A DNA stretch of 64,000 nucleotides from Streptomyces sp. B1I3 (lineage in GTDB: Bacteria; Actinomycetota; Actinomycetes; Streptomycetales; Streptomycetaceae), in assembly GCF_030816615.1 (NCBI RefSeq), contig NZ_JAUSYD010000001.1, forward strand, positions 6,346,501 to 6,410,500, in the 5' to 3' direction. A program made the translations under genes and the position numbers. The notes beneath the pieces were generated by a model that did not search any database, had not been told where the DNA came from, and saw nothing but the letters and a program-made list of their open reading frames with translations. Each line of letters begins with the position of its first letter. Position 1 is the stretch's first letter. Positions 6,304-18,646 of this stretch are shown in pieces.

Positions 6304-7956
6304 TCAGCGCGCGACGTCCGGGCCCCAGTACGGACCGTCCGCCTCCCGCACCCGGCCGTCCTCCTCCACCACCACGAAGCGGTCGAAGGTGCGGGCGAAC
6401 CAGCGGTCGTGCGTGACCGCGAGGACCGTGCCCTCGAAGCGTTCCAGGGCGGATTCCAGGGCCTCGGCGCTGTGCAGGTCGAGGTTGTCGGTCGGCTCGT
6501 CCAGCAGGAGCAGCGTGGAGCCCTGGAGTTCCAGCAGGAGGATCTGGAACCGCGCCTGCTGGCCGCCCGACAGCTGGTCGAAGCGCTGGTCCCCGTGTGC
6601 CTGGAGCTCGTACCGGCGCAGGACCGAGACGGCTGCCCCCCGGTCCCGCCCCTCCCGGTCGCCGTCACCCCGGCCCAGTACCTCCACCAGCGTGCGGCCC
6701 GCCAGGTCGGGCCGCGCCTGGGTCTGTGCGAACCAGCCCGGCCGCACCCGCGCGCCCAGCCTGGCCACCCCGGTGTGGCCGACCGGTTCGCCGTGGCGTG
6801 CCGGATCGTGCAGATCCTGCTCGCTCCCGCCGGCCGCGAGCAGCCGCAGCAGGTGCGACTTGCCCGTACCGTTCGAACCGAGTACGGCCACCCGCTCGCC
6901 GAAGTAGACCTCCAGGTCGAACGGCTTCGTGAGCCCGGAGAGTTCGAGCGCCTCGCAGCGGACGGCCCGTACGCCGGTGCGGCTCCCGCGCAGCCTCATG
7001 CGGACGTTCTGCTCGACCGGCCGCTCCGGCGGCGGGCCGGCCTCCTCGAACCGGGCGAGCCGCGTCTGCATGGCGCGGTACTTCCCGGCCATCGAGGCGG
7101 AGGCCTTGGCCTGCTGCTGGAGCGTGCGGACCAGGTTCTTGAGCCGCTGGTGCTCCTCGTCCCAGCGCCGGTGCAGCTCGTCCAGACGTTCGAGACGGGA
7201 CTGCCTCGCGGTGTAGTAGTCCCGGAATCCGCCGCCGTGCACCCAGACGCCGTTCGCCTCCAGGGTGAGGACGCGGGTGGCGGTGGCCGCCAGCAGTTCG
7301 CGGTCGTGGCTGATGTAGAGCACGGTCTTGCGGGACGCGGCCATCATCTCCTCGAGGTGGCGCTTGCCCGGTACGTCGAGGTAGTTGTCCGGCTCGTCCA
7401 GCAGCAGCACCTGGGCGTTGCCGCGGAACAGCGCCTCGAGCGCGAGACGCTTCTGCTCGCCGCCGGACAGGGTCCGCAACTCCCTGGACCTGGCCCGTTC
7501 GAAAGGGAGCCGCAGCGCCGCCCCGGTGACCAGGTCCCATTCCACCTCGGCGTCGTAACCACCGGTCTCCGCCCATTGCGAGAGCGCTTCCGCATAGCGC
7601 ATCTGCACGGCTTCGCTCTCGCTCTCCAGCATGGCCAATTCTGCGCTCTCCATGGCCGAAAATGCCTGTTTCAATTCCGGCCTGGACAGTGAGACGAGAA
7701 ATTCGAGCACGGTGGTCGCGTCGCGCACGGAGCCGACGAACTGGGGCATGACCCCGAGCCCGCCCACCGTGCGCACCGTCCCGGAATGAGCCTTCAACTC
7801 GCCTGTGATCAGGCGGAACAGCGTGGTCTTCCCCATTCCGTTGGCTCCGATGAGAGCGACCTTGTCGCCGTCACCGACACGGAAGGAAGTGTCATGAAAA
7901 AGCATCCGGCCATCCGCCAGCCAGTACTCCAGACCGGAAACTTCCAAGAACCCCAC
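6304..7956 (-). CDS. ABC-F ATPase, probable ribosome-protection (self-resistance) protein
   Basis: A 550-residue soluble protein with two ABC ATPase domains and no membrane segment, as in ABC-F proteins that act on the ribosome. Domain 1 has Walker A GANGMGKTT, signature LSGGEQKR and Walker B LLLDEPDNYLD. Domain 2 has GSNGTGKSH, LSGGQQAR and LLLDEPTDNLD. Between them is the charged two-helix linker (about 240-320: RLERLDELHRRWDEEHQRLKN and on) that reaches toward the peptidyl-transferase or exit-tunnel region in resistance ABC-Fs. It starts at GTG 7956 with GAGGGG upstream. It is divergent from a RiPP-like cluster, so it may protect the producer from the cluster's product. A housekeeping role is possible but less suggested by the location. 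Confidence 0.88.
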   Translation of the reverse strand: MGFLEVSGLEYWLADGRMLFHDTSFRVGDGDKVALIGANGMGKTTLFRLITGELKAHSGTVRTVGGLGVMPQFVGSVRDATTVLEFLVSLSRPELKQAFSAMESAELAMLESESEAVQMRYAEALSQWAETGGYDAEVEWDLVTGAALRLPFERARSRELRTLSGGEQKRLALEALFRGNAQVLLLDEPDNYLDVPGKRHLEEMMAASRKTVLYISHDRELLAATATRVLTLEANGVWVHGGGFRDYYTARQSRLERLDELHRRWDEEHQRLKNLVRTLQQQAKASASMAGKYRAMQTRLARFEEAGPPPERPVEQNVRMRLRGSRTGVRAVRCEALELSGLTKPFDLEVYFGERVAVLGSNGTGKSHLLRLLAAGGSEQDLHDPARHGEPVGHTGVARLGARVRPGWFAQTQARPDLAGRTLVEVLGRGDGDREGRDRGAAVSVLRRYELQAHGDQRFDQLSGGQQARFQILLLELQGSTLLLLDEPTDNLDLHSAEALESALERFEGTVLAVTHDRWFARTFDRFVVVEEDGRVREADGPYWGPDVAR

Positions 7957-8158: not shown

Positions 8159-8311
8159 ATGGAATCCAACGCCCAGCGTCCGGTGAACGAGGAGACCCCC
8201 GAGCTGCGCCAGCAGGACGGCGACACCTCGGGTCCGGAGCTCGAGACCGACGGTCTGGTCTTCAAGCGCGAGCTGCTCAACGAGTTCCTCGGCGGACGCG
8301 TCCGCAGCTGA
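8159..8311 (+). CDS. Putative RiPP precursor peptide, 50 residues
   Basis: A short gene starting at ATG 8159 with ACGAGGGGAA ideally placed upstream. It encodes 50 residues: an acidic, Gln/Glu/Pro-rich first 32, then an amphipathic helix-like stretch (F35-K-R-E-L-L-N-E-F-L44), then G45-G46 and R-V-R-S. The hydrophobic residues at -12 (Phe35), -7 (Leu40) and -4 (Phe43) before the double Gly match the spacing of double-glycine leader peptides. The implied core is only four residues. There is no Cys, Tyr, Trp or His, which excludes lanthionine, thiazole and biaryl chemistry. It is followed by modification genes, all on the same strand. The precursor role is inferred from size, leader motif and context; no homologue was recognised. 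Confidence 0.72.
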   Translation: MESNAQRPVNEETPELRQQDGDTSGPELETDGLVFKRELLNEFLGGRVRS

Positions 8312-8414
8312 CCGAAGCGCCACCGGGCTCCGGCAGACGCAGGGCCGGGGCCCGGTGGTGTGCGACATCGGGCCGACGAGGCGGAACGAAGGTGCCGACA
8401 CGGAGCGGGGGGCG

Positions 8415-9956
8415 GTGGTCGACGTGCGGACGGACGAGACCGGCGAGGGGAAGCGCGGCCCCCGCCCGTTCACCGTGGACATCGACGCCTGGCCGCTCAG
8501 TCTGGACCCGTACCACGTCGTGGACTTCAACCAGGCGCTCGTCCTCGACGCGCTCGTCGACCCACTCACCCGCGAGGACCCGCTCGACCCGGGGGTCGCG
8601 CTGCCCTCGGCCCTGAGCTCGCTCGACCCCCTGGACGACGGACGGACCTGGCTGCTGCGCCCGGCGCCCGGTCAGATCTGGGACGACGGCACACCCGTCC
8701 GCCCCCAGGAGATCGCGGCCGGGATCCACCGGGCCTGGGGCCCCACCGGGCTCGTGCTGCCCGACGGGTACGCCACCCACGACAGCGGTCCGGGCGGCGG
8801 CGCCCGGTCGCCGGTCACCGCACGCGTCGTCGCCGGCGACGGCGGAGCCGTCACCGGGCGCACGGTGATCGAGGTGCGGTCCTCCCTGGCGCTGCCCTAC
8901 CTCGCCGGGCTCCTGGCGTTCCCGGGCGCGGCCCCCGTGCGGGAGGAGGGACACGGCTGGACGGCCAGCGGGCCCTACCGCCCGGTGAGCGCCGACCGCC
9001 GGCTGGGCAGGATCGAGCTGCGCCGCAAACCGTCCCGCAGGACCGGCCCCGGGACACCCGCAACCGTCGTCTTCCAGGTGCACCGCGAACGCGCGCGGGC
9101 ACTCGCCGCGTTCGACGAAGGACTGCTCGACCTCTCGCTCAACACCGGTCTGCCGCCGGCGGACTTCGGCCGGCTCGCAGCCCTGCCGCACGCGACGGTA
9201 CGCACCCTGTCCATGGCCTGTCAGCTGTGGGTGCGCCCCGGCACCGACTCCGTCCTGGACACCGCTGCCGGACGGCGCGCGTTCGGCGACGGCTTCGACC
9301 GGGAGGCGGTCTCCGCCCGGCTGCAGCGGGCCGTGGTGCCGTTGCACCGGTACAGCGGGCTGTGGGACACGCACCGGCCGGCCCCTGGGATGCCCGACAT
9401 CGCGACGCCGCCGCCCCGCCGGCTTCCGCCGTCCGGCCGCCGCGCGGAACTGACCCTCACCTACGCGGACTTCCCGCCCAACGACCGGGTCGTCGCGGCC
9501 CTCGCCGCCGACATCGAAGCCCGCCTCGGCCATCGTGTCCATCCGCGCCCCCTGACCTACCGCGCGTTCGCGAAGGCCGTCACAGCCCTCGACTACGAAC
9601 TGCTGTACTGCATCAATCCGGCGCCCCTGGCGCACGTGGCCGGCTACCTCACCCAGTTCCACAGCGCCGCGGCCACCGGCAGAGCGCTCGGGCTGCGTGA
9701 CGCGGAAGTGGACGCGGCCCTCGACCGCGCCCTGCGCACGCCGGGGGCCGAGGCCTCCGCCCGGGCCTGGCAGCAGGCCGAGGCGGCCGTCCTGAGCCGG
9801 GCCCCCGTGGTGCCGCTCTTCCAGGTCAACAGCGTCACCCTGCACCGGCCCGGCTCCCCGCCACCCGCGGTGGCCGCCACCGGAGCCATCGACCTGGACC
9901 GTGCCGCCGGCCCCGCCGCGCCCCACACCCACGACCGGAAGGTCCTCTCCGCATGA
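8415..9956 (+). CDS. Family-5 solute-binding-fold protein, no signal peptide, in RiPP cluster
   Basis: About 513 residues with the SBP_bac_5 (peptide/nickel-binding) fold. Supporting segments are the N-terminal SLDPYHVVDFNQALVLDALVDPLTRED, the characteristic WLLRPAPGQIWDDGTPVRPQEIAAGIHRAW, a central ASGPYRPV segment, and a C-terminal lobe. No Sec or Tat signal and no lipobox Cys are seen, so it is probably cytoplasmic, unlike transport partners, and no ABC permease gene is nearby. GTG 8415 is preferred (GGAG nine bases upstream); GTG 8355 is an alternative. It overlaps the next gene by ATGA. It may bind the peptide intermediate or precursor, which is inference. It could instead be a periplasmic binder with a missed export signal, but the N-terminus does not look so. 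Confidence 0.72.
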   Translation: MVDVRTDETGEGKRGPRPFTVDIDAWPLSLDPYHVVDFNQALVLDALVDPLTREDPLDPGVALPSALSSLDPLDDGRTWLLRPAPGQIWDDGTPVRPQEIAAGIHRAWGPTGLVLPDGYATHDSGPGGGARSPVTARVVAGDGGAVTGRTVIEVRSSLALPYLAGLLAFPGAAPVREEGHGWTASGPYRPVSADRRLGRIELRRKPSRRTGPGTPATVVFQVHRERARALAAFDEGLLDLSLNTGLPPADFGRLAALPHATVRTLSMACQLWVRPGTDSVLDTAAGRRAFGDGFDREAVSARLQRAVVPLHRYSGLWDTHRPAPGMPDIATPPPRRLPPSGRRAELTLTYADFPPNDRVVAALAADIEARLGHRVHPRPLTYRAFAKAVTALDYELLYCINPAPLAHVAGYLTQFHSAAATGRALGLRDAEVDAALDRALRTPGAEASARAWQQAEAAVLSRAPVVPLFQVNSVTLHRPGSPPPAVAATGAIDLDRAAGPAAPHTHDRKVLSA

Positions 9957-10708
9957 CGAACACGACCACGGGCAGGGCCCATGCCTACCGGGCGGCGGAC
10001 CGGACCCCGCCGGAACTGGCCGCCCTCGGCGCCCTCCTGCGCCGCGACCCCGCCCGCCCGGTCCACCTCGACGGATTCCTGCCCGCCGAGCGGGCGGACC
10101 GCCTGGGCGATGCGGTCCGCGCGCTCCCCCGATGGGCGTCGTCGGCCGTGGTGTGGACCGAGGACCGGAGCTCCACCGTCAAGGTCACCCCGCAGGAGTG
10201 GCGGGCCGCGGAACCCGGCCGGCGGGCCGCGATCCGTGACGTCGCCCAGGACATCCCCGCCCTGTTCGACGGGGACTTCACCTACCCGGCCGCGTACCGG
10301 GAGGAGCTCTCCGACTTCTTCGTCTTCGCCGGCATGGGGCCCGTCCTGCGCACCCGGCTCGCCCGGTGGGTGGCACCGGACGGCCCGATCACCACCAACG
10401 TCGAATTCGCCCGCTACGGCCGGGACGACCAGCTCGGCGAGCACTCCGACGCGGAGTCCGACACCCTCTTCGTCCTCAACCTCTACCTCGATCCCGGATT
10501 CCGGGAGGCGGACGGCGGCGTACTCGGGTTCCGCAACGAGGCGGGGGAGGAGTTCCGCATGCCGCCCCGCTTCAACAGCGTCTCCGTGGTGCCGATCCGG
10601 CCGGGATGCGTGCACTGGGTCGAACGGTGGCGGACCGGACGCATCGGCCGGCACACCGTCAGCATCGCCGTGACCCCGGCCCCCACGACGAACGCCGAGG
10701 TGAAGTGA
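9953..10708 (+). CDS. 2OG-Fe(II) oxygenase (prolyl-4-hydroxylase-like fold), first of two
   Basis: A 251-residue protein with a double-stranded beta-helix dioxygenase core. The facial triad is visible as His164-x-Asp166 (EHSDAESDTLFVLNLYLD) and His221 (PGCVHWVERW), with Arg233 or a nearby Arg as the 2-oxoglutarate anchor (GRIGRHTVSIAV). Before the distal His is the segment RFNSVSVVPIRPGCVHWV, shared with the second oxygenase at 12749, so the two are paralogues with limited identity. It probably hydroxylates, or otherwise oxidises, a residue of the precursor peptide. It overlaps the upstream gene by four bases (ATGA), and the radical SAM gene starts two bases after its stop. This implies translational coupling. 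The substrate is inferred. Confidence 0.85.
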   Translation: MTNTTTGRAHAYRAADRTPPELAALGALLRRDPARPVHLDGFLPAERADRLGDAVRALPRWASSAVVWTEDRSSTVKVTPQEWRAAEPGRRAAIRDVAQDIPALFDGDFTYPAAYREELSDFFVFAGMGPVLRTRLARWVAPDGPITTNVEFARYGRDDQLGEHSDAESDTLFVLNLYLDPGFREADGGVLGFRNEAGEEFRMPPRFNSVSVVPIRPGCVHWVERWRTGRIGRHTVSIAVTPAPTTNAEVK

Positions 10709-10710
10709 CC

Positions 10711-12702
10711 ATGGCAGTAAGTGCTGGGAACGCTCCCGGGACGAAGAGCGCGGGGACCTCCACGAGCGGCGCGGACGGTGCGCGGTCCGTGGTGCTCGCC
10801 TTCCCGCCGCTCGTCGAGTCCAGCTTCGGCCGCTACTTCCCCTCCGTCGCCGCACTCGCCGGATACCTGGACAGCCGCGGGGTCACCACGCGGCAGTGGG
10901 ACCTCAACGAGGAGTTCGCCCTGCACCTCCTCGAACCGGCCCACCTGCAGGCGGCCGGCGAGGGCAGGCTCACCGGCCTCGAGGACCACTCACCGGAGGC
11001 GATGAGCGCGGTCGCCGGGCGTTGGCTCGCCGGTCACCGCGACACGCTCTTCGACGACGAGGGCCGTCACGCCTTCGCCGCCTCGGCCGGTCCCGCCTAC
11101 CTGCTCTCCGCCCTCGCACAGCCCTACCTCATCGATCCGGAACCGCAGTGGCTCGGCGACGCCGCGCTCCTGCGGTCCGCGCCCACGCTCGTCTACCGCA
11201 CCTACTACGCCCGCCTCGGCCTGGCCTCCCGCATTCCCGCGGACGCCTGCCTCATCGGCATCTCCGTCCCCATGGGACCGCAGCTGGTTCCGGCGCTCCT
11301 GCTGGCCGAGGCCGTCAAGGAGGTCCGCCCCGACGTACGCGTCGTGCTCGGCGGGCCCACGCTGTCGCTCATGCAGGAGGAGGACCTCACCACTCTGCTC
11401 GCCACCCACCGGCAGGTGGACGCGGTCGTCAGGTTCGACGGCGAGACGCCGCTCGCCGCCCTGTGCTCCCACGCACGCGAGGGCGGCTGGCGTCCCGGCG
11501 AGGTGGCGGGAGTGTCCTCCTGGTCGGGGCAGGGCGTCACGCACGTACCGCCCGGTCCCGGCCTGCACCCCAACGTGCTGCCGCCCGCGGCGTACGACCA
11601 CGAGCTCCTCGGCAGGCTCGTCGCCCCCGAGATCGGCATCTCCCAGGCGCGCGGCTGCTACTGGGGCAAGTGCGACTACTGCGACTTCGTCGAGCTCTAC
11701 GACGGCAGCCCGCCCTACCGCGGACGCTCGGTGAAGACCTTCATGGCCGAGCTGGAGCACCAGGTCCGCTCGCACGGCGCCCGCCACTTCGAGCTGATCA
11801 CGGAGTCCATCCCGCCCGCGTTCGCCCGGCGCTTCTCCCAGGCGGTCATCGACCGAGGGCTGGACATCGTCTGGAACTCCTTCGCCATGGTCGACCGGCG
11901 CTTCGACGCCGAACTCCTGCAGCTCATGGCCAGGGCCGGGTGCGAGTACCTCGTCATCGGCATGGAGACCACCAACACCCGCGTGCTGAACCTCGTCCAC
12001 AAGTCGGCCGACCGCGAGGAGAACCTGCGCTTCATCCGCGAGGCGCACAGCGCGGGGATGAAACTGCGGATCAACCTCATTCCCGACCTGCCCTCCACCA
12101 CCCGCGAGGAAGCTCTGGAGTCGCTCCGGGACGTCGCCGAACTCGCCGATCTCGTCGACTCGTTCACCGTGTTCCCCTTCGAGGCGACCCGGTCGTCCGA
12201 AGTCGGCCGCAACCCCGAGCGCTTCGGGCTGGTGATCGCCGACTCCGGCACGGGCACCGCCAACCAGGCGCAGTACGCCCTCAACCACCTGGGCAACATC
12301 GATCCGGCGATGACCGACGAACAGCGCCGCGGTGTCCACGAGGTGTACCAGGACTTCGCCGTCCAGCACGGCTCCGGTTACATGCGGGTGACCGGCTCGG
12401 ACTTCCTCGGGCGCCTCCCTGCCCCGGACGAGCCGTTCCGCCTCGGCACCGAGTACCTGGACGTCCTGCGGCGCGGGGAGGCACTGGTCGTCACCCACGT
12501 GCTGCGCCGCGAACGCACGGTCCTGCCCGCCGCCGTCGCCACCGGACTGACCCGCTGGCTGGACGGATCACCGCTGACCCGTCAGGACCTCGCCCACTCC
12601 TACGGGGACGACGGGGCGCGACGGGTCGTCGAGCAACTGGTCGACGCCCGGATGCTGATGACGGCCGCCGGGGCCGTCGACAACGAACCCGCCGTCGTGT
12701 GA
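10711..12702 (+). CDS. B12-binding radical SAM enzyme, RiPP-maturation type
   Basis: A 663-residue protein. Residues about 25-290 form an N-terminal cobalamin-binding-like domain (VVLAFPPLVESSFGRYFPSV; VRVVLGGPTLS; DAVVRFDGETPL). The radical SAM barrel begins at GISQARGC, with cluster cysteines Cys316, Cys321 and Cys324 in a CX4CX2C spacing instead of the textbook CX3CX2C. Further conserved parts are the GMETTN and RINLIPDLP segments. The last 80 residues (THVLRRERTVLPAAVATGLTRW ...) look like a winged-helix, PqqD/RRE-like domain. B12 radical SAM enzymes of this layout usually C-methylate unactivated carbons of peptide residues, and a few form rings. A Val or Arg of the core would be a natural target; this is inference. 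It is in a coupled operon. Confidence 0.88.
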   Translation: MAVSAGNAPGTKSAGTSTSGADGARSVVLAFPPLVESSFGRYFPSVAALAGYLDSRGVTTRQWDLNEEFALHLLEPAHLQAAGEGRLTGLEDHSPEAMSAVAGRWLAGHRDTLFDDEGRHAFAASAGPAYLLSALAQPYLIDPEPQWLGDAALLRSAPTLVYRTYYARLGLASRIPADACLIGISVPMGPQLVPALLLAEAVKEVRPDVRVVLGGPTLSLMQEEDLTTLLATHRQVDAVVRFDGETPLAALCSHAREGGWRPGEVAGVSSWSGQGVTHVPPGPGLHPNVLPPAAYDHELLGRLVAPEIGISQARGCYWGKCDYCDFVELYDGSPPYRGRSVKTFMAELEHQVRSHGARHFELITESIPPAFARRFSQAVIDRGLDIVWNSFAMVDRRFDAELLQLMARAGCEYLVIGMETTNTRVLNLVHKSADREENLRFIREAHSAGMKLRINLIPDLPSTTREEALESLRDVAELADLVDSFTVFPFEATRSSEVGRNPERFGLVIADSGTGTANQAQYALNHLGNIDPAMTDEQRRGVHEVYQDFAVQHGSGYMRVTGSDFLGRLPAPDEPFRLGTEYLDVLRRGEALVVTHVLRRERTVLPAAVATGLTRWLDGSPLTRQDLAHSYGDDGARRVVEQLVDARMLMTAAGAVDNEPAVV

Positions 12703-12748: not shown

Positions 12749-13498
12749 ATGCGCAGTACCACCGAGCAGCCGACGCACCCGGAGCTCGCCGCGGCAGTGC
12801 CGTTCATCGCCCCCGAGTACCTGACCGGCGACTTCTTCGCCAGGATGGGTGACTGGTACCACGGCGACGAACCCCACCCCCTGCACCTGCACAACTTCCT
12901 GCGGCCCGAGCTCGCGGCCGCGGTGTCCACGGCCGTGCGCGGCATCCCCGACTGGTCACCGCACGCAGCGCTCTACGAAGGCCGCATGGGCAAGACGGAG
13001 TTCTGGGACGAGGAGGCGGACGCCGGCCACGAGGTCACCATCAGCCAGCTCGCCGTACGGGACATTCCCGCACTGCTCGACAGCGGGGCCATGGACCCCG
13101 CCCACCAGCAGGTCATCGAGCAGTTCCTCGCCTTCGCCCTGCTGTCCGACACACTCCGCGACTGGATCAAGGCCGGCACCGGTCTGGAACTGCGCAAGCG
13201 GGCCTTCATGGAGATCGCCGCCTACCGCCGCTCCGACGGGCTCGGCGCACACCAGGACCTGGTCCCCGGCCGGGTGCTGGCGATGAACTTCTACCTCGAC
13301 GAGAACTACCGCGCCGAGCACGGCGGCCGGCTCAGCTTCCGTGACGGCGAAGGCCGTGAGCACCACATCGAGCCCGTCTACAACAGCCTCTCCATCATTC
13401 CGATCCGCGAGGACTGCTGGCACTGGGTCGAGCCCTTCAGCAGCGACACGGTCGGCCGGTACACCATCGCCATCGGGCAGCATCTGGAGGGGAGCTGA
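12749..13498 (+). CDS. 2OG-Fe(II) oxygenase, second of two
   Basis: A 249-residue paralogue of the oxygenase at 9953. The iron triad is His168-x-Asp170 (GAHQDLVPGRVLAMNFYLDENY) and His225 (REDCWHWVEPF), with Arg237 as the likely 2-oxoglutarate ligand (GRYTIAIG). It shares the EPVYNSLSIIPIRE segment with its paralogue, but the N-terminal 90 residues differ, so the two probably act at different positions of the peptide. It starts at ATG 12749 with GAGGAGAA upstream, 46 bases after the radical SAM stop. The presence of two oxygenases points to at least two oxidative steps. The substrate is unproven. Confidence 0.85.
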   Translation: MRSTTEQPTHPELAAAVPFIAPEYLTGDFFARMGDWYHGDEPHPLHLHNFLRPELAAAVSTAVRGIPDWSPHAALYEGRMGKTEFWDEEADAGHEVTISQLAVRDIPALLDSGAMDPAHQQVIEQFLAFALLSDTLRDWIKAGTGLELRKRAFMEIAAYRRSDGLGAHQDLVPGRVLAMNFYLDENYRAEHGGRLSFRDGEGREHHIEPVYNSLSIIPIREDCWHWVEPFSSDTVGRYTIAIGQHLEGS

Positions 13499-13524: not shown

Positions 13525-14526
13525 GTGGCGGTCCATGAGACCGAGTGCGAGACGCTCCTGAACCTCGGTGACCGGCTGCTGCGCGTCGGCGGCCCCCAGC
13601 CGCGGGTCCGCGCGGCACTGGACCGGCTGCGCACGGGAACCACGCAGGACCGGCTGGCCGCGGACTGGGCCCCCGGTGCGGTCGCGGCGCTGCTCGCCGA
13701 ACTCCGCGACCAGGGCTGGCTCACCGGGGAGAGCGAAGAGGAACGTGCCGCCTTCGCCGGGGAGACGTACGAGCGCCAGGTCGACCACCTGGCACTCTTC
13801 GGCCCCGACACGGCCGCCGCGCAGCGCCGGCTGCTCGGGTCCCGGGTCGCCGTCATCGGCCTGGGAGGCATCGGCGGCATCGTCACCCAGCACCTGGTGG
13901 GAGCGGGCGTCAGCCGGTTCTGGCTCGTCGACGACGACTGCGTGGCCGGCCACAACCTCAACCGCCAGTTCACGTACGGGTCACAGGACATCGGCAGTCC
14001 CAAGACCCGGGCGCTCGCCCGCAGTCTGTCCGCCCTGCGGCCCGGCATCCGCACCACCGGCGTACGGAAGCGGATCACGGAGGCCGCCCAGCTCTTCGAC
14101 GAGCTCCCCGGCGACCTGGACCTGGTGATCGTGGCCGCGGACACCCCGCCGGGTCTCCCGGACGTCGTGTGGGAGTGGGCCGTGGCCACGGGCACCCCCA
14201 CGGCCGTCGCGGCTGTCGGTGTCGGCATCGGCTTCTGGGGCCCCGTCCTCGTGCCCGCCCGCGACGGCTGCTGGCCGTGCTTCGAGCGCGGCCGGCGAGC
14301 CGTCCTCACGGGACTGGAACGAACCGTCGAGGACCGATCCGCCGAACCTGCCCCCTTCTCCTTCGGTCCGAGCAATACAGTGATCGCCGCGATGCTCGCC
14401 CATGACGTCGTGGAGTTCCTGTGCAGCGGATCGTGCCCCACCCTGGGCCGCCGTGCCGCGCTGGACTTCCGGCGCCAACGGATCACCCACAGCGAAGAAA
14501 TGAAGTGCTCGTGTCCGACGACCTGA
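13525..14526 (+). CDS. RRE plus E1/ThiF-type adenylating enzyme, MccB-like
   Basis: At least 333 residues. The N-terminal 80 look like a winged-helix peptide-recognition (RRE) domain, as in MccB and the ThiF-like partners of azoline synthetases. Residues 107-300 form the ThiF/E1 fold: nucleotide loop GLGGIGG (112-118), acidic DDD at 136-138, N-x-x-R-type NLNRQ at 144-148, Lys160, and cysteines CWPC (249-252) with a C-terminal CSC (328-330), probably the structural zinc site. Such enzymes adenylate a peptide carboxylate or side chain. No YcaO partner exists here, favouring MccB-like chemistry. GTG 13525 is the first standard start, but family-like sequence (TLRLLPAV) continues in frame upstream, so a CTG near 13507 or 13495 may be the true start. 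Confidence 0.82.
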   Translation: MAVHETECETLLNLGDRLLRVGGPQPRVRAALDRLRTGTTQDRLAADWAPGAVAALLAELRDQGWLTGESEEERAAFAGETYERQVDHLALFGPDTAAAQRRLLGSRVAVIGLGGIGGIVTQHLVGAGVSRFWLVDDDCVAGHNLNRQFTYGSQDIGSPKTRALARSLSALRPGIRTTGVRKRITEAAQLFDELPGDLDLVIVAADTPPGLPDVVWEWAVATGTPTAVAAVGVGIGFWGPVLVPARDGCWPCFERGRRAVLTGLERTVEDRSAEPAPFSFGPSNTVIAAMLAHDVVEFLCSGSCPTLGRRAALDFRRQRITHSEEMKCSCPTT

Positions 14527-15902
14527 TAACGCAGCAGAAGCAGAAGGCGGCGGGCCGCAGGAAGGAGTCGTTCAGGGGCACCGGCTTCCTGCGCCTGTGG
14601 TCGGGCGAGACGGTGTCCGTGGCGGGCACCGAAGTCACCTTCATGGCGATCGGGATCGCCGCGGCGACCACCCTCGCCGCGACGCCCTGGCAGATGGGTG
14701 TGCTGGAGGCCGCGGAGTCCGCCGCGGTCCTGCTGCTCGGCCTGTCCGCGGGCGTGTGGGCGGACCGCTACGAGCGGCGCCGCATCATGCTCATCGCCAA
14801 CCTGGCACGCTGCGTACTGATCCTCTCCGTCCCGCTGCTGTACTGGCTGGACGCACTGACCATGCCCGTGCTGTACGCGGTCGTCTTCCTCGTCGGTGCC
14901 CTGACGCTGCTCTTCGACAGCGCGATGTCGGCCTATCTGCCACGGCTGTTGCCCCGCAGCCAACTGGAACGCGCCAACTCCTGGATGGAAGCCAGCACGT
15001 CGGTGGGCTCGGTCGCCGGACCGGGACTCGCCGGAGTGCTCATCCAGGTCATGAGCGCCCCGGTGGCCCTGGTCGTCGACTCCGTCTCCTACCTGGTCAG
15101 TTACCTCACCCTGTCGCGGCTGCCCCAGGCCCCGCCGTCCGCCGACCCGGGGACCCCGGACGCGGAGCCGCAGGAATCGCACCGGCACGCCGTCCTCAAG
15201 GGCCTGCACCTGCTGCGCGTCGACCGCATCCAGCGGCCGATGATCCTCGCCGCCGCGCACTTCAACATCTTCCACACGATGTTCTTCGCCGTGCACACGC
15301 TCTTCGTGTTGCGTGTACTCGACTTCAGCCCCGGCCTCCTCGGCGCCACCAGCATGGCGGGAGGTGTCGCAGGACTCCTCGGCGCGTCCTTCACGCCGGC
15401 GCTCACCCGTCTTTTCGGCCAGGGCCGCACCCTGATCATCGTCTACGCCGCCCCGGGCCTCTCGGCCCTCCTGGTCCCGCTGGCCCACCACACGGGCGAC
15501 CGGGGCCTCGCCATCGCCCTGGTCTCGCTGTCGACCTTCACGTGGACGTTCGCCGTGGTGGTCAATCTCGTCATCAGCGAGACGGTGAAGCAGACCCTGG
15601 TCCCCGACCACCTCCTGGGCCGGGTCACCGCCACCACACGCTTCGTCAGCTGGGGGGTCCAGCCGGTCGGCGCGCTGCTCGGCGGCTGGCTCGGCGGACG
15701 GCTGGGGCTCTCGGAGGTCATGGTCGTCTCGGCGGCCGGCCTGTTCACGTCCGCGCTCTGGCCGCTCCTCAGCCCGGTACGCAATCTGGTCGGACCGCCT
15801 GACGACGACACGGACGGCGGCGTGACGGACGGCGACGGCGGGGACGTCGACGGCGCGAGCGGCGCGACGAGCGAGCCGTCGCCGCCGCCCGAGAAGACCT
15901 GA
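14511..15902 (+). CDS. MFS transporter, probable exporter of the RiPP product
   Basis: About 463 residues with 12 predicted membrane helices. It carries the MFS loop between helices 2 and 3 (GVWADRYERRRIMLIAN) and the enterobactin-exporter-like subgroup features common in Streptomyces biosynthetic clusters (SYLPRLLPRSQLERANSWMEASTSVGSVAGPGLAG). The C-terminus is a soluble Asp/Ser-rich tail of about 40 residues. GTG 14511 is used (GTG 14505 is possible); the gene overlaps the E1 gene by 16 bases, so it is translationally coupled. It probably exports the mature peptide. The substrate is inferred from operon position only. Confidence 0.85.
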   Translation: MSDDLITQQKQKAAGRRKESFRGTGFLRLWSGETVSVAGTEVTFMAIGIAAATTLAATPWQMGVLEAAESAAVLLLGLSAGVWADRYERRRIMLIANLARCVLILSVPLLYWLDALTMPVLYAVVFLVGALTLLFDSAMSAYLPRLLPRSQLERANSWMEASTSVGSVAGPGLAGVLIQVMSAPVALVVDSVSYLVSYLTLSRLPQAPPSADPGTPDAEPQESHRHAVLKGLHLLRVDRIQRPMILAAAHFNIFHTMFFAVHTLFVLRVLDFSPGLLGATSMAGGVAGLLGASFTPALTRLFGQGRTLIIVYAAPGLSALLVPLAHHTGDRGLAIALVSLSTFTWTFAVVVNLVISETVKQTLVPDHLLGRVTATTRFVSWGVQPVGALLGGWLGGRLGLSEVMVVSAAGLFTSALWPLLSPVRNLVGPPDDDTDGGVTDGDGGDVDGASGATSEPSPPPEKT

Positions 15903-15950
15903 CGACAGCCGGCCCGGTCCGTCCGCAGAGCCTGAACACAGGAGCAGAAG

Positions 15951-17261
15951 ATGCCCGCGCTCAATCCGATCGGCCGCACCTTGTCCAACGGCCTGCGGGT
16001 GATCGTCTCCAGGGACACCACGGTCCCCGTCGCCGCGGTGTGCCTGTGGTACCGGGTGGGATCGTGTGACGAGCCCGCCGGCCGGACAGGTCTCTCCCAC
16101 CTGTTCGAACACCTGATGTTCCAGGGATCGACGCACGTCCCGGCCAACGGCCACACCGCCGCCGTGGAGGAGGCGGGCGGTCTGACCAACGCCTCCAGCG
16201 GCTTCGAACGCACCACTTTCTACACGGTCGTCCCCGCCGGCCAGCTGGAACTGGTGCTGTGGCTGGAGGCCGACCGGATGGGAGGCATGCTCGACGCCTT
16301 CACGCCCGAGGGCCTCGGCAACCAGCGGGACGTCGTGCTCAACGAGCGGCGGGAGCGGTACGACAACGTGCCCTACGGCACCGGATGGGAGCAGCTGGTC
16401 GCCATGACGTTCCCTCCCGGTCACCCCTTCCGCGAGTTGCCGGCAGGCAGCCCCCGGGACCTGGCCGCCGTCACGGAGGACGACTGCCGGGCGTTCTTCC
16501 GCCGGCACTACGCCCCCGACCGGGCGATCCTCACGGTCGTCGGCGACGTGGAACCGGACGCGGTGGTGGATCTCGCGGAACGCCACTTCCGTCACATAGC
16601 GCCCTCCGCCTCCGGCCGCTGGGCACCCCCGGCGTGCTCGCGCACCCCCGCGCTCCCGGCCGAGACCCGGCGCCACGCCGAGGCGGCGGTGCCCGGTCCG
16701 GCGTTCATGGCCGCCTACCAGCTGCCCGCCCGTGGTGGACGTGCCTACGCCGCCACGGACCTCGCTCTGACGCTGCTGGGGGGGATGAGCAGCAGCGGAC
16801 TGCACGACCGGCTCGTGCGGCGGGACCAGCTCGCCCACAGCGCCCGCTTCTCCCTGTTGCCCCTGCGGTCGGCACCCTCCCTGGGCCGGCTGGACGTGCG
16901 CGCCGTGCCCGGCACCGGCCTCGACGTCGTGGAGAAGGTGGTCGACGAGGAGATCGAGCGCCTCGTCGACCACGGGGTCGCCGACGCGTCGCTGCGGGGG
17001 GCCAAGGCCCAGATCCGGCGCGAGTGGTACGACCGCCTCGCCCATCCGGGCAGCCGGGCCGACGAACTGTGCGCCCAGGAGGCTCACTTCGGCGACGCGG
17101 CGCTGGCCGACGCCCATCTCGGTGAGGCCTTGGACATCTCCGCGGCCGAGGTGCGGCAGGCCGCGGCCGACTGGCTCGCCCCCGAACGGCGCTCGGTCCT
17201 GACCTATGAACCCGCGGGTGCCACGGACCCGGCCCGAGCCGCGCGAGGAGCCGCCGCATGA
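15951..17261 (+). CDS. M16B zinc peptidase, catalytic subunit
   Basis: A 436-residue protein of the half-size (M16B) insulinase family. The inverted zinc motif HXXEH is at His50-Leu-Phe-Glu53-His54 (GLSHLFEHLMFQG), and the third zinc ligand is a Glu near 133-136 (VVLNERRE). No signal peptide. It begins at ATG 15951 with AGGAGCAGAAG upstream and overlaps the second M16 gene by ATGA. M16B enzymes work as two-subunit chambers, with one subunit supplying zinc and the other an Arg/Tyr pair; the next gene supplies that partner. It is the obvious candidate for leader removal. M16 pairs have this role in other RiPP pathways, but cleavage after Gly46 here is a guess. Confidence 0.9.
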   Translation: MPALNPIGRTLSNGLRVIVSRDTTVPVAAVCLWYRVGSCDEPAGRTGLSHLFEHLMFQGSTHVPANGHTAAVEEAGGLTNASSGFERTTFYTVVPAGQLELVLWLEADRMGGMLDAFTPEGLGNQRDVVLNERRERYDNVPYGTGWEQLVAMTFPPGHPFRELPAGSPRDLAAVTEDDCRAFFRRHYAPDRAILTVVGDVEPDAVVDLAERHFRHIAPSASGRWAPPACSRTPALPAETRRHAEAAVPGPAFMAAYQLPARGGRAYAATDLALTLLGGMSSSGLHDRLVRRDQLAHSARFSLLPLRSAPSLGRLDVRAVPGTGLDVVEKVVDEEIERLVDHGVADASLRGAKAQIRREWYDRLAHPGSRADELCAQEAHFGDAALADAHLGEALDISAAEVRQAAADWLAPERRSVLTYEPAGATDPARAARGAAA

Positions 17262-18646
17262 CCGCCCCCGCCACCACCGGCCCGCGCCCCGCCCGTCCTG
17301 CCACGGCGCCCGTCCGGCCGTGGCACTTCCCCCGGCTGCACAGGAGCGTCCTGGACAACGGCCTCACGCTGCTGACCTGCGACCGGCCGGGTCAGGAAGT
17401 GCTGAGCGCCGAGATCATCGTCGCCGTGCCGCTCGCTCTCGAACCACGCGAGCTGGAGGGCGTCGTGGGCATCACGGCCAGCGCCCTGGCCGAGGGCGTA
17501 CCGGGACTGGACTCGCTCGACTTCATCCACGCGCTGGAACACTGCGGAGCCACCCTCGGCGTCGGCGCCGAGCACACCGGCCTCCGGATCACCCTCGACG
17601 TCCCCGGTACCCATCTGGAGGAAGCGCTGGGCCTGCTCACCTCGGCTCTGCGCACCCCCCTGTTCCCCGCTCGATCCGTCGAACGCCTGGTCGGAGCACG
17701 CGCGAACGCGTACGTCCGCAACCGGGCCGACGCCGAGCGCCGCGCGTCCATGGAACTGCACACCGCCCTGTTCGACGCGGCGGACCGCCGTTCGCGGCCG
17801 GCCCGCGGCACCGACGTGACGGTCCGCGGGATCGACCGGGACGCGGTCGCCGCCTTCCACCACCGCTTCGTCCGCCCGGCCGTCTCCACCGTCGCGCTCG
17901 CGGGCGACCTGGCCAGGTACGACGTCGACGCCGTGCTGCGCCGCGTGCTGGGCACGTGGGAGGGCGAGCCGGGCACCCTTGAGGCACCCCCGTCCCCGCC
18001 GGTGCGCGACGAGGCGCCGGTGATCCTCGTCGACCGGCCAGGGGCCCTCCAGACCCGGCTGGTCCTCGGGCGGGTCGCACCGGGCCGTGCCACGCCCGAC
18101 TGGGACGCGCTGCTGATCGGCAACCACAGCCTCGGCGGCTCGGTCAACGCACGGCTCGACCGTGAACTACGCGAGGCCAAGGGCTACACGTACGGGTTCC
18201 ACAGCCGCCTGCTGGGTGTGGTCCAGGACTCCCTCGCCGTCGTGACGGGGGCGGTGGAGACATCGGTGACGGCGCCCGCGCTGAACGACATCACCCGCAT
18301 CCTGACCGAGGTCGCCGACCGCGGGATCACGGAGGCGGAGCGCGCGGCCGCGGTGGCGCAGATCGTGGACGCGGCGCCGCTGCGCTACCTCACCGCGTCG
18401 GCGGTCGCGGAGGAGATGGCCCTGCTGGTCCTCGACGGCCGGGACCCCGCGAGCCTGCCGGACGCCTTCCGGCGCGCGGCGGCGATCACCACCGAGGAGG
18501 CCTCCGGCGCCCTGCGTTCAGCCTTCCCTCCGGACGGCATGGTGACGGTCGCGATCGGCGACGTCTCGGTGTTCGGTGAGGAACTCCGGGGGAACGCCAC
18601 GGCTCCGGTGCACCTCCTGCGAACGGGGTCCTCACGGCTCCCGTAG
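17258..18646 (+). CDS. M16B peptidase-like subunit without zinc motif
   Basis: A 462-residue M16-fold protein lacking HXXEH: the equivalent region reads LEPRELEGVVGITASALAEG. It keeps the C-terminal substrate-binding Arg/Tyr region (LDRELREAKGYTYGFHSRL), as expected for the non-catalytic partner of a heterodimeric M16B protease. An N-terminal 25-residue Pro/Ala-rich extension precedes the fold. It is coupled to the catalytic subunit by an ATGA overlap, so equal amounts are made. It is the last clear gene of the RiPP-like operon; after 63 bases comes soxR, probably an independent unit. Confidence 0.88.
   Translation: MTAPATTGPRPARPATAPVRPWHFPRLHRSVLDNGLTLLTCDRPGQEVLSAEIIVAVPLALEPRELEGVVGITASALAEGVPGLDSLDFIHALEHCGATLGVGAEHTGLRITLDVPGTHLEEALGLLTSALRTPLFPARSVERLVGARANAYVRNRADAERRASMELHTALFDAADRRSRPARGTDVTVRGIDRDAVAAFHHRFVRPAVSTVALAGDLARYDVDAVLRRVLGTWEGEPGTLEAPPSPPVRDEAPVILVDRPGALQTRLVLGRVAPGRATPDWDALLIGNHSLGGSVNARLDRELREAKGYTYGFHSRLLGVVQDSLAVVTGAVETSVTAPALNDITRILTEVADRGITEAERAAAVAQIVDAAPLRYLTASAVAEEMALLVLDGRDPASLPDAFRRAAAITTEEASGALRSAFPPDGMVTVAIGDVSVFGEELRGNATAPVHLLRTGSSRLP

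Follow-up and report, generated by a model that had tools for sequence, protein, structure and literature searches.

Precursor recognition in the biosynthesis of ribosomally synthesized and post-translationally modified peptides (RiPPs) is understood chiefly through the leader peptide and the RiPP recognition element (RRE). According to a 2025 review (PMC12250964), MccB forms an acyl-adenylate to activate the residue at the C-terminus of its peptide. Substrate-binding proteins (SBPs) of the importer-type SBP_bac_5 fold have been described outside import as well: chaperone-like activity in vitro is reported for OppA (PMC7442780), OppA2 is described as essential for clavulanic acid and has been suggested to hold a pathway intermediate within a multi-enzyme complex, an OppA2 mutant secreting an intermediate (PMC7830376), and SgrR-type transcription factors are reported to carry an SBP_bac_5 domain (PMC13060122). 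Here we analysed an SBP-like protein encoded in a window of 64,000 nucleotides from Streptomyces sp. B1I3 (the whole stretch of DNA studied, G000:C1:6346501-6410500 of a 7.52 Mb genome). Its gene (positions 8415..9956 of the window, + strand, 513 aa) lies within a RiPP operon, and a sequence-only reading of the window had proposed a cytoplasmic chaperone or scaffold for the core peptide. We lean slightly towards a dedicated role for this protein in the cytoplasm, in which it would bind the Arg-Ser/Thr/Cys tail of the core peptide and work with the ThiF-like enzyme of the operon.

Fourteen different clusters of this kind were found, namely the window, L008-L016, L052 and L079-L081 (L052 is the same place as L007, and L079 and L080 are near-copies), in Streptomyces, an uncultured Corynebacteriales bacterium, Microbacterium, Sphingomonas and another actinobacterium. 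Both the SBP-like protein and the ThiF-like enzyme were present in 14/14 clusters, and a B12-binding radical S-adenosylmethionine (SAM) enzyme in 13/14, being missing from L016, where the minimal cluster consists of the precursor, ThiF, SBP, a JmjC oxygenase and a major facilitator superfamily (MFS) gene. The constant partners of the SBP-like protein are the precursor and the ThiF-like enzyme. In all 14 clusters the SBP-like gene lies within a same-strand operon, with a start-stop overlap in several. A dedicated biosynthetic role is supported by conservation of the protein in every intact cluster, where its neighbours include the precursor and an enzyme that adenylates peptides. The earlier view of the operon as a RiPP operon is also supported. 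The sequence-only reading had also stressed coupling by overlap to a peptide-modifying oxygenase. The overlap itself is there, the ATG of oxygenase A at 9953 overlapping the SBP-like stop that ends at 9956 (ATGA), but an oxygenase as the key partner did not hold, as some clusters lack one: the window has two, as do L008-L010, whereas L011, L012, L014 and L052 have one each and L016 has one of JmjC type; the queries used showed none in L079-L081.

Among 295 Streptomyces-type genomes of the genus, the SBP-like protein occurred in 7 and the radical SAM enzyme in 8, the 7 being within the 8. In the eighth genome, G010 (L051), the cluster is cut in oxygenase A, and the SBP, precursor and ABC-F genes are gone. 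The only cluster with the radical SAM enzyme and without the SBP is thus also devoid of a precursor and has an incomplete oxygenase A, in keeping with the SBP-like protein being a core component of the pathway. Unrelated MFS and TetR-like genes stand in front of the cut in L051, a natural broken cluster.

A motif scan of 84,980 species genomes returned 9 loci, 5 of which were identical to clusters from the SBP search of the 295 genomes. When 394 genomes of the class were searched with a ThiF profile, there were 11 matches, comprising the window, three new clusters with an adjoining SBP (L079-L081) and seven loci without an SBP. In the ThiF tree, the SBP-adjoining ThiF genes formed one group with support 100/100, apart from the seven ThiF genes without an SBP; the position of L016 is unsure because of its long branch. 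Those seven loci (L082-L088) were considered as counter-examples and set aside: they lie in the separate tree group and give no match to the window radical SAM enzyme, and so were taken not to be this pathway. In 396 genomes of the phylum, a profile scan yielded 24 further loci (L018-L041); the sequence examined at these loci contained neither ThiF nor a Y[AS]DFxPN motif, and they were treated as ordinary importer proteins. Plasmid searches with the window SBP and with the window ThiF gave no matches, and one with the Sphingomonas SBP gave three weak matches; of the two regions examined, one belongs to an importer operon and the other carries no annotation.

The ThiF/E1-like peptide adenylyltransferase (13525..14526, +; Pfam ThiF 121.8 bits) is of the MccB/PaaA kind. 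When the family ThiF profile was compared with solved structures, MccB came first with 158 bits. The model of the enzyme had a predicted local distance difference test (pLDDT) score of 82.7 and an N-terminal β3-α3 domain of RRE topology, and in a Foldseek search its 24 best matches were all MccB, followed by PaaA. The cluster therefore encodes a ThiF-like adenylyltransferase with an RRE-like N-terminal domain, the hallmark of MccB/PaaA-type RiPPs. The enzyme would activate the C-terminal Ser/Thr/Cys of the precursor. Its constant pairing with the SBP-like protein could also mean that the fold has been absorbed into the enzyme complex as a catalytic or allosteric subunit, its receptor function gone, and invariant Asp, Tyr and Asn residues of the cleft (described below) could then be catalytic. 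To our knowledge, MccB and PaaA operate without an SBP-type subunit, and we know of no precedent within the fold. Nor is such a subunit of either enzyme named in the matching parts of the review (PMC12250964), and we regard this possibility as improbable.

By sequence, assignment of the window protein to the SBP_bac_5 family is marginal (33.9 bits against a curated Pfam cut-off of 32.4), and its relative in L016 falls under the cut-off with 26.7 bits. Compared alone with the sequences of solved structures, the window protein had no match at 0.001 and weak OppA/MppA-type matches (E 0.002-1.3), and the family profile reached E 3e-34. An AlphaFold model built from 10 family rows (pLDDT 79.9, predicted template modelling score 0.82) matched OppA/MppA across nearly its entire length, with a best Foldseek E of 7.1e-27; the top eight VIA matches had Z of about 28-30 and a root mean square deviation of 3.4-3.9 over 445-465 residues. 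The best structural matches, with alignments that run from about residue 12-18 to residue 500, were oligopeptide-binding proteins; members that bind metals, sugars or opines were also close. A two-lobe SBP_bac_5 or cluster-C substrate-binding fold of the OppA/MppA type is well supported for the predicted structure, and in this respect the sequence-only reading was right, with the Pfam score, the model and the Foldseek and VIA matches in agreement.

The SBP-like reading frame (8355-9956, +) offers GTG starts at 8355, 8415 and 8424, and a purine-rich stretch lies upstream of that at 8415. The choice of start leaves the result unaltered because distant homologues have nearly no residues before the same first strand. 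Export signals were analysed in 11/14 clusters, with the 13 other SBP_bac_5 genes of the genome as a control. A lipobox was found in 0/11 family rows and in 12/13 of the control genes, the 13th having a hydrophobic segment. In one control gene, L056 (G000:C1:6790894-6793179), the lipobox sits in a frame other than that of the Pfam match, a mismatch that points to a frameshift or a sequencing error. The most hydrophobic 11-mer within the first 35 residues scored 0.59-1.95 across the family rows and 0.65 for the window protein (0.01 from the 8355 start). Because the ranges touch (L012 1.95 and L011 1.73 versus control L059 1.78), this measure alone is not fully separating; the hydrophobic stretch in L011 and L012 is the conserved first beta strand. 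In distant relatives, this strand begins within about 3-10 residues of Met (MTQAVIALDAFPL in L011, MNLRIALDAPPL in L007 and MRPVRIEMD in L016), and the L079-L081 rows begin similarly, with the first strand close to Met. None of the 100 BPD_transp_1 places in the genome is inside the window, the nearest being 66 kb upstream and 120 kb downstream.

Thus, neither an export signal nor a cognate permease, as expected of an ABC importer binding protein, accompanies the SBP-like gene, and a cytoplasmic location is supported by the absence of a signal. The three points on which the sequence-only reading had relied here, namely no signal peptide, no lipobox Cys and no permease genes nearby, were confirmed, including for the corrected start, since no signal was found from either 8415 or 8355. 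The Pfam family and the fold are those of importer SBPs, so the protein might be an ordinary binding protein whose signal was missed, but given the lipobox counts and the distance to the closest permease we consider this highly improbable. Another cytoplasmic function known for the fold is regulation. SgrR is cytoplasmic, and an SgrR-like sensor of the operon's ligand would find its parallel in the SBP_bac_5 domain of such transcription factors. However, no DNA-binding domain was found, the first SBP strand of the model starts at residue 19, and the few residues before it in distant relatives make such a sensor scarcely credible.

The precursor encoded in the window (8159..8311, +) is 50 aa long with the C-terminus ...LVFKRELLNEFLGGRVRS, and tblastn found homologues at the equivalent position in L008-L010. 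In 14/14 clusters, a short open reading frame (ORF) on the same strand as the operon and <=400 nt upstream of it ended in R-[STC]; these upstream stretches contained 54 short ORFs, 17 of them with an R-[STC] end, against a background of 141/2926 short ORFs. The tails are VRS (window, L008, L009 and L014), VRT (L010), HRS (L011, L012 and L052), NRS (L013), NRC (L015), HRT (L016) and RRC (L079-L081), with arginine at the last-but-one position in every precursor. Leader patterns (such as LEFDRETLNDLLA, LNFDVVSLNEELA and LDFEQVTLNEQLA) independently back most of the precursors, and do so least for L014 and L016. Three clusters have a second R-[STC] ORF, which we judged to be due to chance. The possible precursor of L016 (8900-8971, 23 aa, METTSFEIEEKAIDIDTLIVHRT) is very short for a leader-bearing RiPP. 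Ring closure as a (thio)lactone, which would join the last Ser/Thr/Cys to an acid further upstream in the manner of GRC peptides, was rejected because L079-L081 have no acid there.

Cleft residues were compared by aligning 14 rows of the family with 12 canonical ones, leaving out L056 and L066 of the genome's 13 other SBPs; alignments A2 and A3 cover 10/14 and 9/14 clusters, respectively. D24, Y350, D352, P355 and N356 were present in 14/14 family rows and D37 in 13/14, at columns that vary in the 12 canonical rows, and the family has its own invariant motif, Y-x-D-x-x-P-N. In the alignment, these six residues map to the cleft of OppA. N356 aligns with OppA His371, which we take to be a ligand-contact position. 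The OppA counterpart of D37 is position 33, flanked by Glu32 and Val34, both listed among the OppA binding residues (PMC7442780). The column of OppA Asp419, the residue described as holding the peptide amine (PMC5736914), is PPPPDDAAFSELLF in the family (acid in 3/14; P404 in the window protein) versus D in 7/12 canonical rows. The acidic alpha-amine anchor of OppA-type receptors thus seems to be absent from the window protein, and a protein that binds the tail while the leader is still attached would have no use for one. The cleft therefore seems to be in use, but not for a free N-terminus.

Two other kinds of ligand were considered. If the finished, leader-free short peptide were bound in the cytoplasm, the SBP-like protein could protect the producer or deliver the product to the MFS exporter. 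OppA-fold proteins do bind free short peptides, and an MFS gene was matched by the window query in 10/14 clusters. On the other hand, the anchor for a free amine is lost, the SBP-like gene is placed among modifying genes, the ABC-F protein encoded in 8/14 clusters could provide immunity, and L079-L081 retain the SBP-like protein without an MFS match; we regard such sequestration or hand-off as unlikely. Alternatively, the cleft might carry a small co-substrate, such as an amine, amino acid or nucleotide, for attack on the adenylated C-terminus. Many small ligands are accommodated by the fold, and the constant pairing involves the ThiF-like enzyme and not the oxygenases or the radical SAM enzyme, but there is no candidate ligand and the Ser/Thr/Cys of the tail supplies its own nucleophile, which makes a carrier role rather unlikely.

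The reading that we prefer, a binder of the Arg-Ser/Thr/Cys tail, could work as follows. The ThiF-like enzyme would grip the leader by its RRE-like N-terminal domain and adenylate the C-terminal end. The lobes of the SBP-like protein would close on the X-Arg-Ser/Thr/Cys tail, or on an intermediate still bearing it, and would keep, protect or present the tail to the adenylating, methylating and hydroxylating enzymes. We infer both what the ThiF-like enzyme activates and the order of the steps. D24, D37 and D352 may read the invariant arginine of the tail, a testable match rather than a proof. Several points weigh against tail binding. The family-to-OppA alignment has 13-18% identity, so that single columns are uncertain; loss of the amine anchor would equally suit a non-peptide ligand, as metal, sugar and opine binders are close structural matches; the three aspartates could be structural; and several precursors were initially chosen partly by their R-[STC] ending. 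A bolder form of the tail-binding reading is a two-ended clamp, in which the usual RRE reads the leader and a captured import receptor reads the C-terminal core as a second, general means of recognizing the substrate, a very short Arg-Ser/Thr/Cys core being fully matured in, or passing through, the cleft; this is possible, though we put it forward tentatively.

The other genes of the window operon are as follows. Oxygenase A (9953..10708, +) is a 2-oxoglutarate (2OG)-Fe(II) oxygenase with 2OG-FeII_Oxy_3 at 25.4 bits, slightly under the cut-off of 27, and oxygenase B (12749..13498, +) scores above it with 35.1 bits. Between them lies the B12-binding radical SAM enzyme (10711..12702, +; Pfam Radical_SAM and B12-binding), for which the nearest NCBIfam is rSAM_ocin_1, a RiPP C-methyltransferase subfamily, under the cut-off. 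The MFS exporter (14511..15902, +; Pfam MFS_1 110.9 bits) had its start set by comparison with L008/L010, the Pfam search having been run from 14448; no MFS match was obtained in L079-L081. It is followed by an M16 peptidase with an HxxEH motif (HLFEH; 15951..17261, +; Pfam Peptidase_M16 and M16_C) and a second M16-like subunit (17258..18646, +; Pfam Peptidase_M16_C only), which lacks the catalytic Pfam domain and is probably an inactive partner. This pair is a candidate leader protease. Window queries matched the two genes (15951-18646) only among the close relatives of the window, and the remaining clusters must rely on something else. Upstream, on the - strand, is a divergent ABC-F protein (6304..7956; NCBIfam ribo_prot_ABC_F 268.7 bits, under the cut-off of 380), with about 60-85% identity by tblastn among the 8/14 clusters, which may serve self-protection and point to a ribosome-directed product.

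Other clusters differ in their tailoring genes. L013 encodes a carbamoyltransferase, by Pfam (14296-16050), and L015 a gene with a similar start (14439-16196), both in clusters with no 2OG oxygenase and with N-R-S/C cores, which suggests carbamoylation as an alternative tailoring. A large gene follows each of them, GDSL-like in L013 but under the Pfam cut-off. In the Sphingomonas cluster L014, a pyridoxal phosphate-dependent decarboxylase-like gene (13963-15045) adjoins the oxygenase.

If tail binding is correct, the SBP-like protein would act in recognition of the core and offer an engineering handle, with a fold evolved to enclose short peptides. ThiF together with an SBP lacking a signal and an R-[STC] tail also forms a signature by which to search for a RiPP family that appears to be undescribed, whose ABC-F genes hint at a translation-directed product. 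We found no description of a RiPP with such an SBP-like protein in the open literature, judged by titles and the beginnings of abstracts, and a term search and selected sections of the 2025 review (PMC12250964) mention no SBP in ThiF-type RiPPs. The sequence-only reading had spoken of a new use of the fold. This was overstated, as SgrR, OppA2 and OppA already take it outside import; what appears new is that an SBP without a signal occurs constantly in a family of MccB-type RiPP clusters whose precursors have R-[STC] tails.

The periplasmic OppA, MppA and DppE share the two-lobe cluster-C fold along the whole window protein, which differs from them in having no signal peptide, no permease partner, no conserved amine anchor at the Asp419 column and its own Y-x-D-x-x-P-N motif. 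The SgrR and DsvR regulators have an N-terminal helix-turn-helix domain, for which the window protein has no room before its first strand. OppA2 (PDB 2wok) is likewise an SBP_bac_5-type protein in a Streptomyces biosynthetic cluster, and the family profile matches it with 92.9 bits; however, its pathway is not a RiPP pathway, and five other distinct solved sequences outscore it, which speaks against any special closeness. Microcin C (MccA/MccB) and pantocin A (PaaP/PaaA) share with these clusters a ThiF-like enzyme with an RRE-like N-terminal domain and a short precursor, and provide the nearest solved structures. The microcin C precursor ends in Asn, whereas 14/14 precursors here end in R-[STC], and to the ThiF-like core of both systems the clusters described here add a B12-binding radical SAM enzyme, oxygenases and an SBP.
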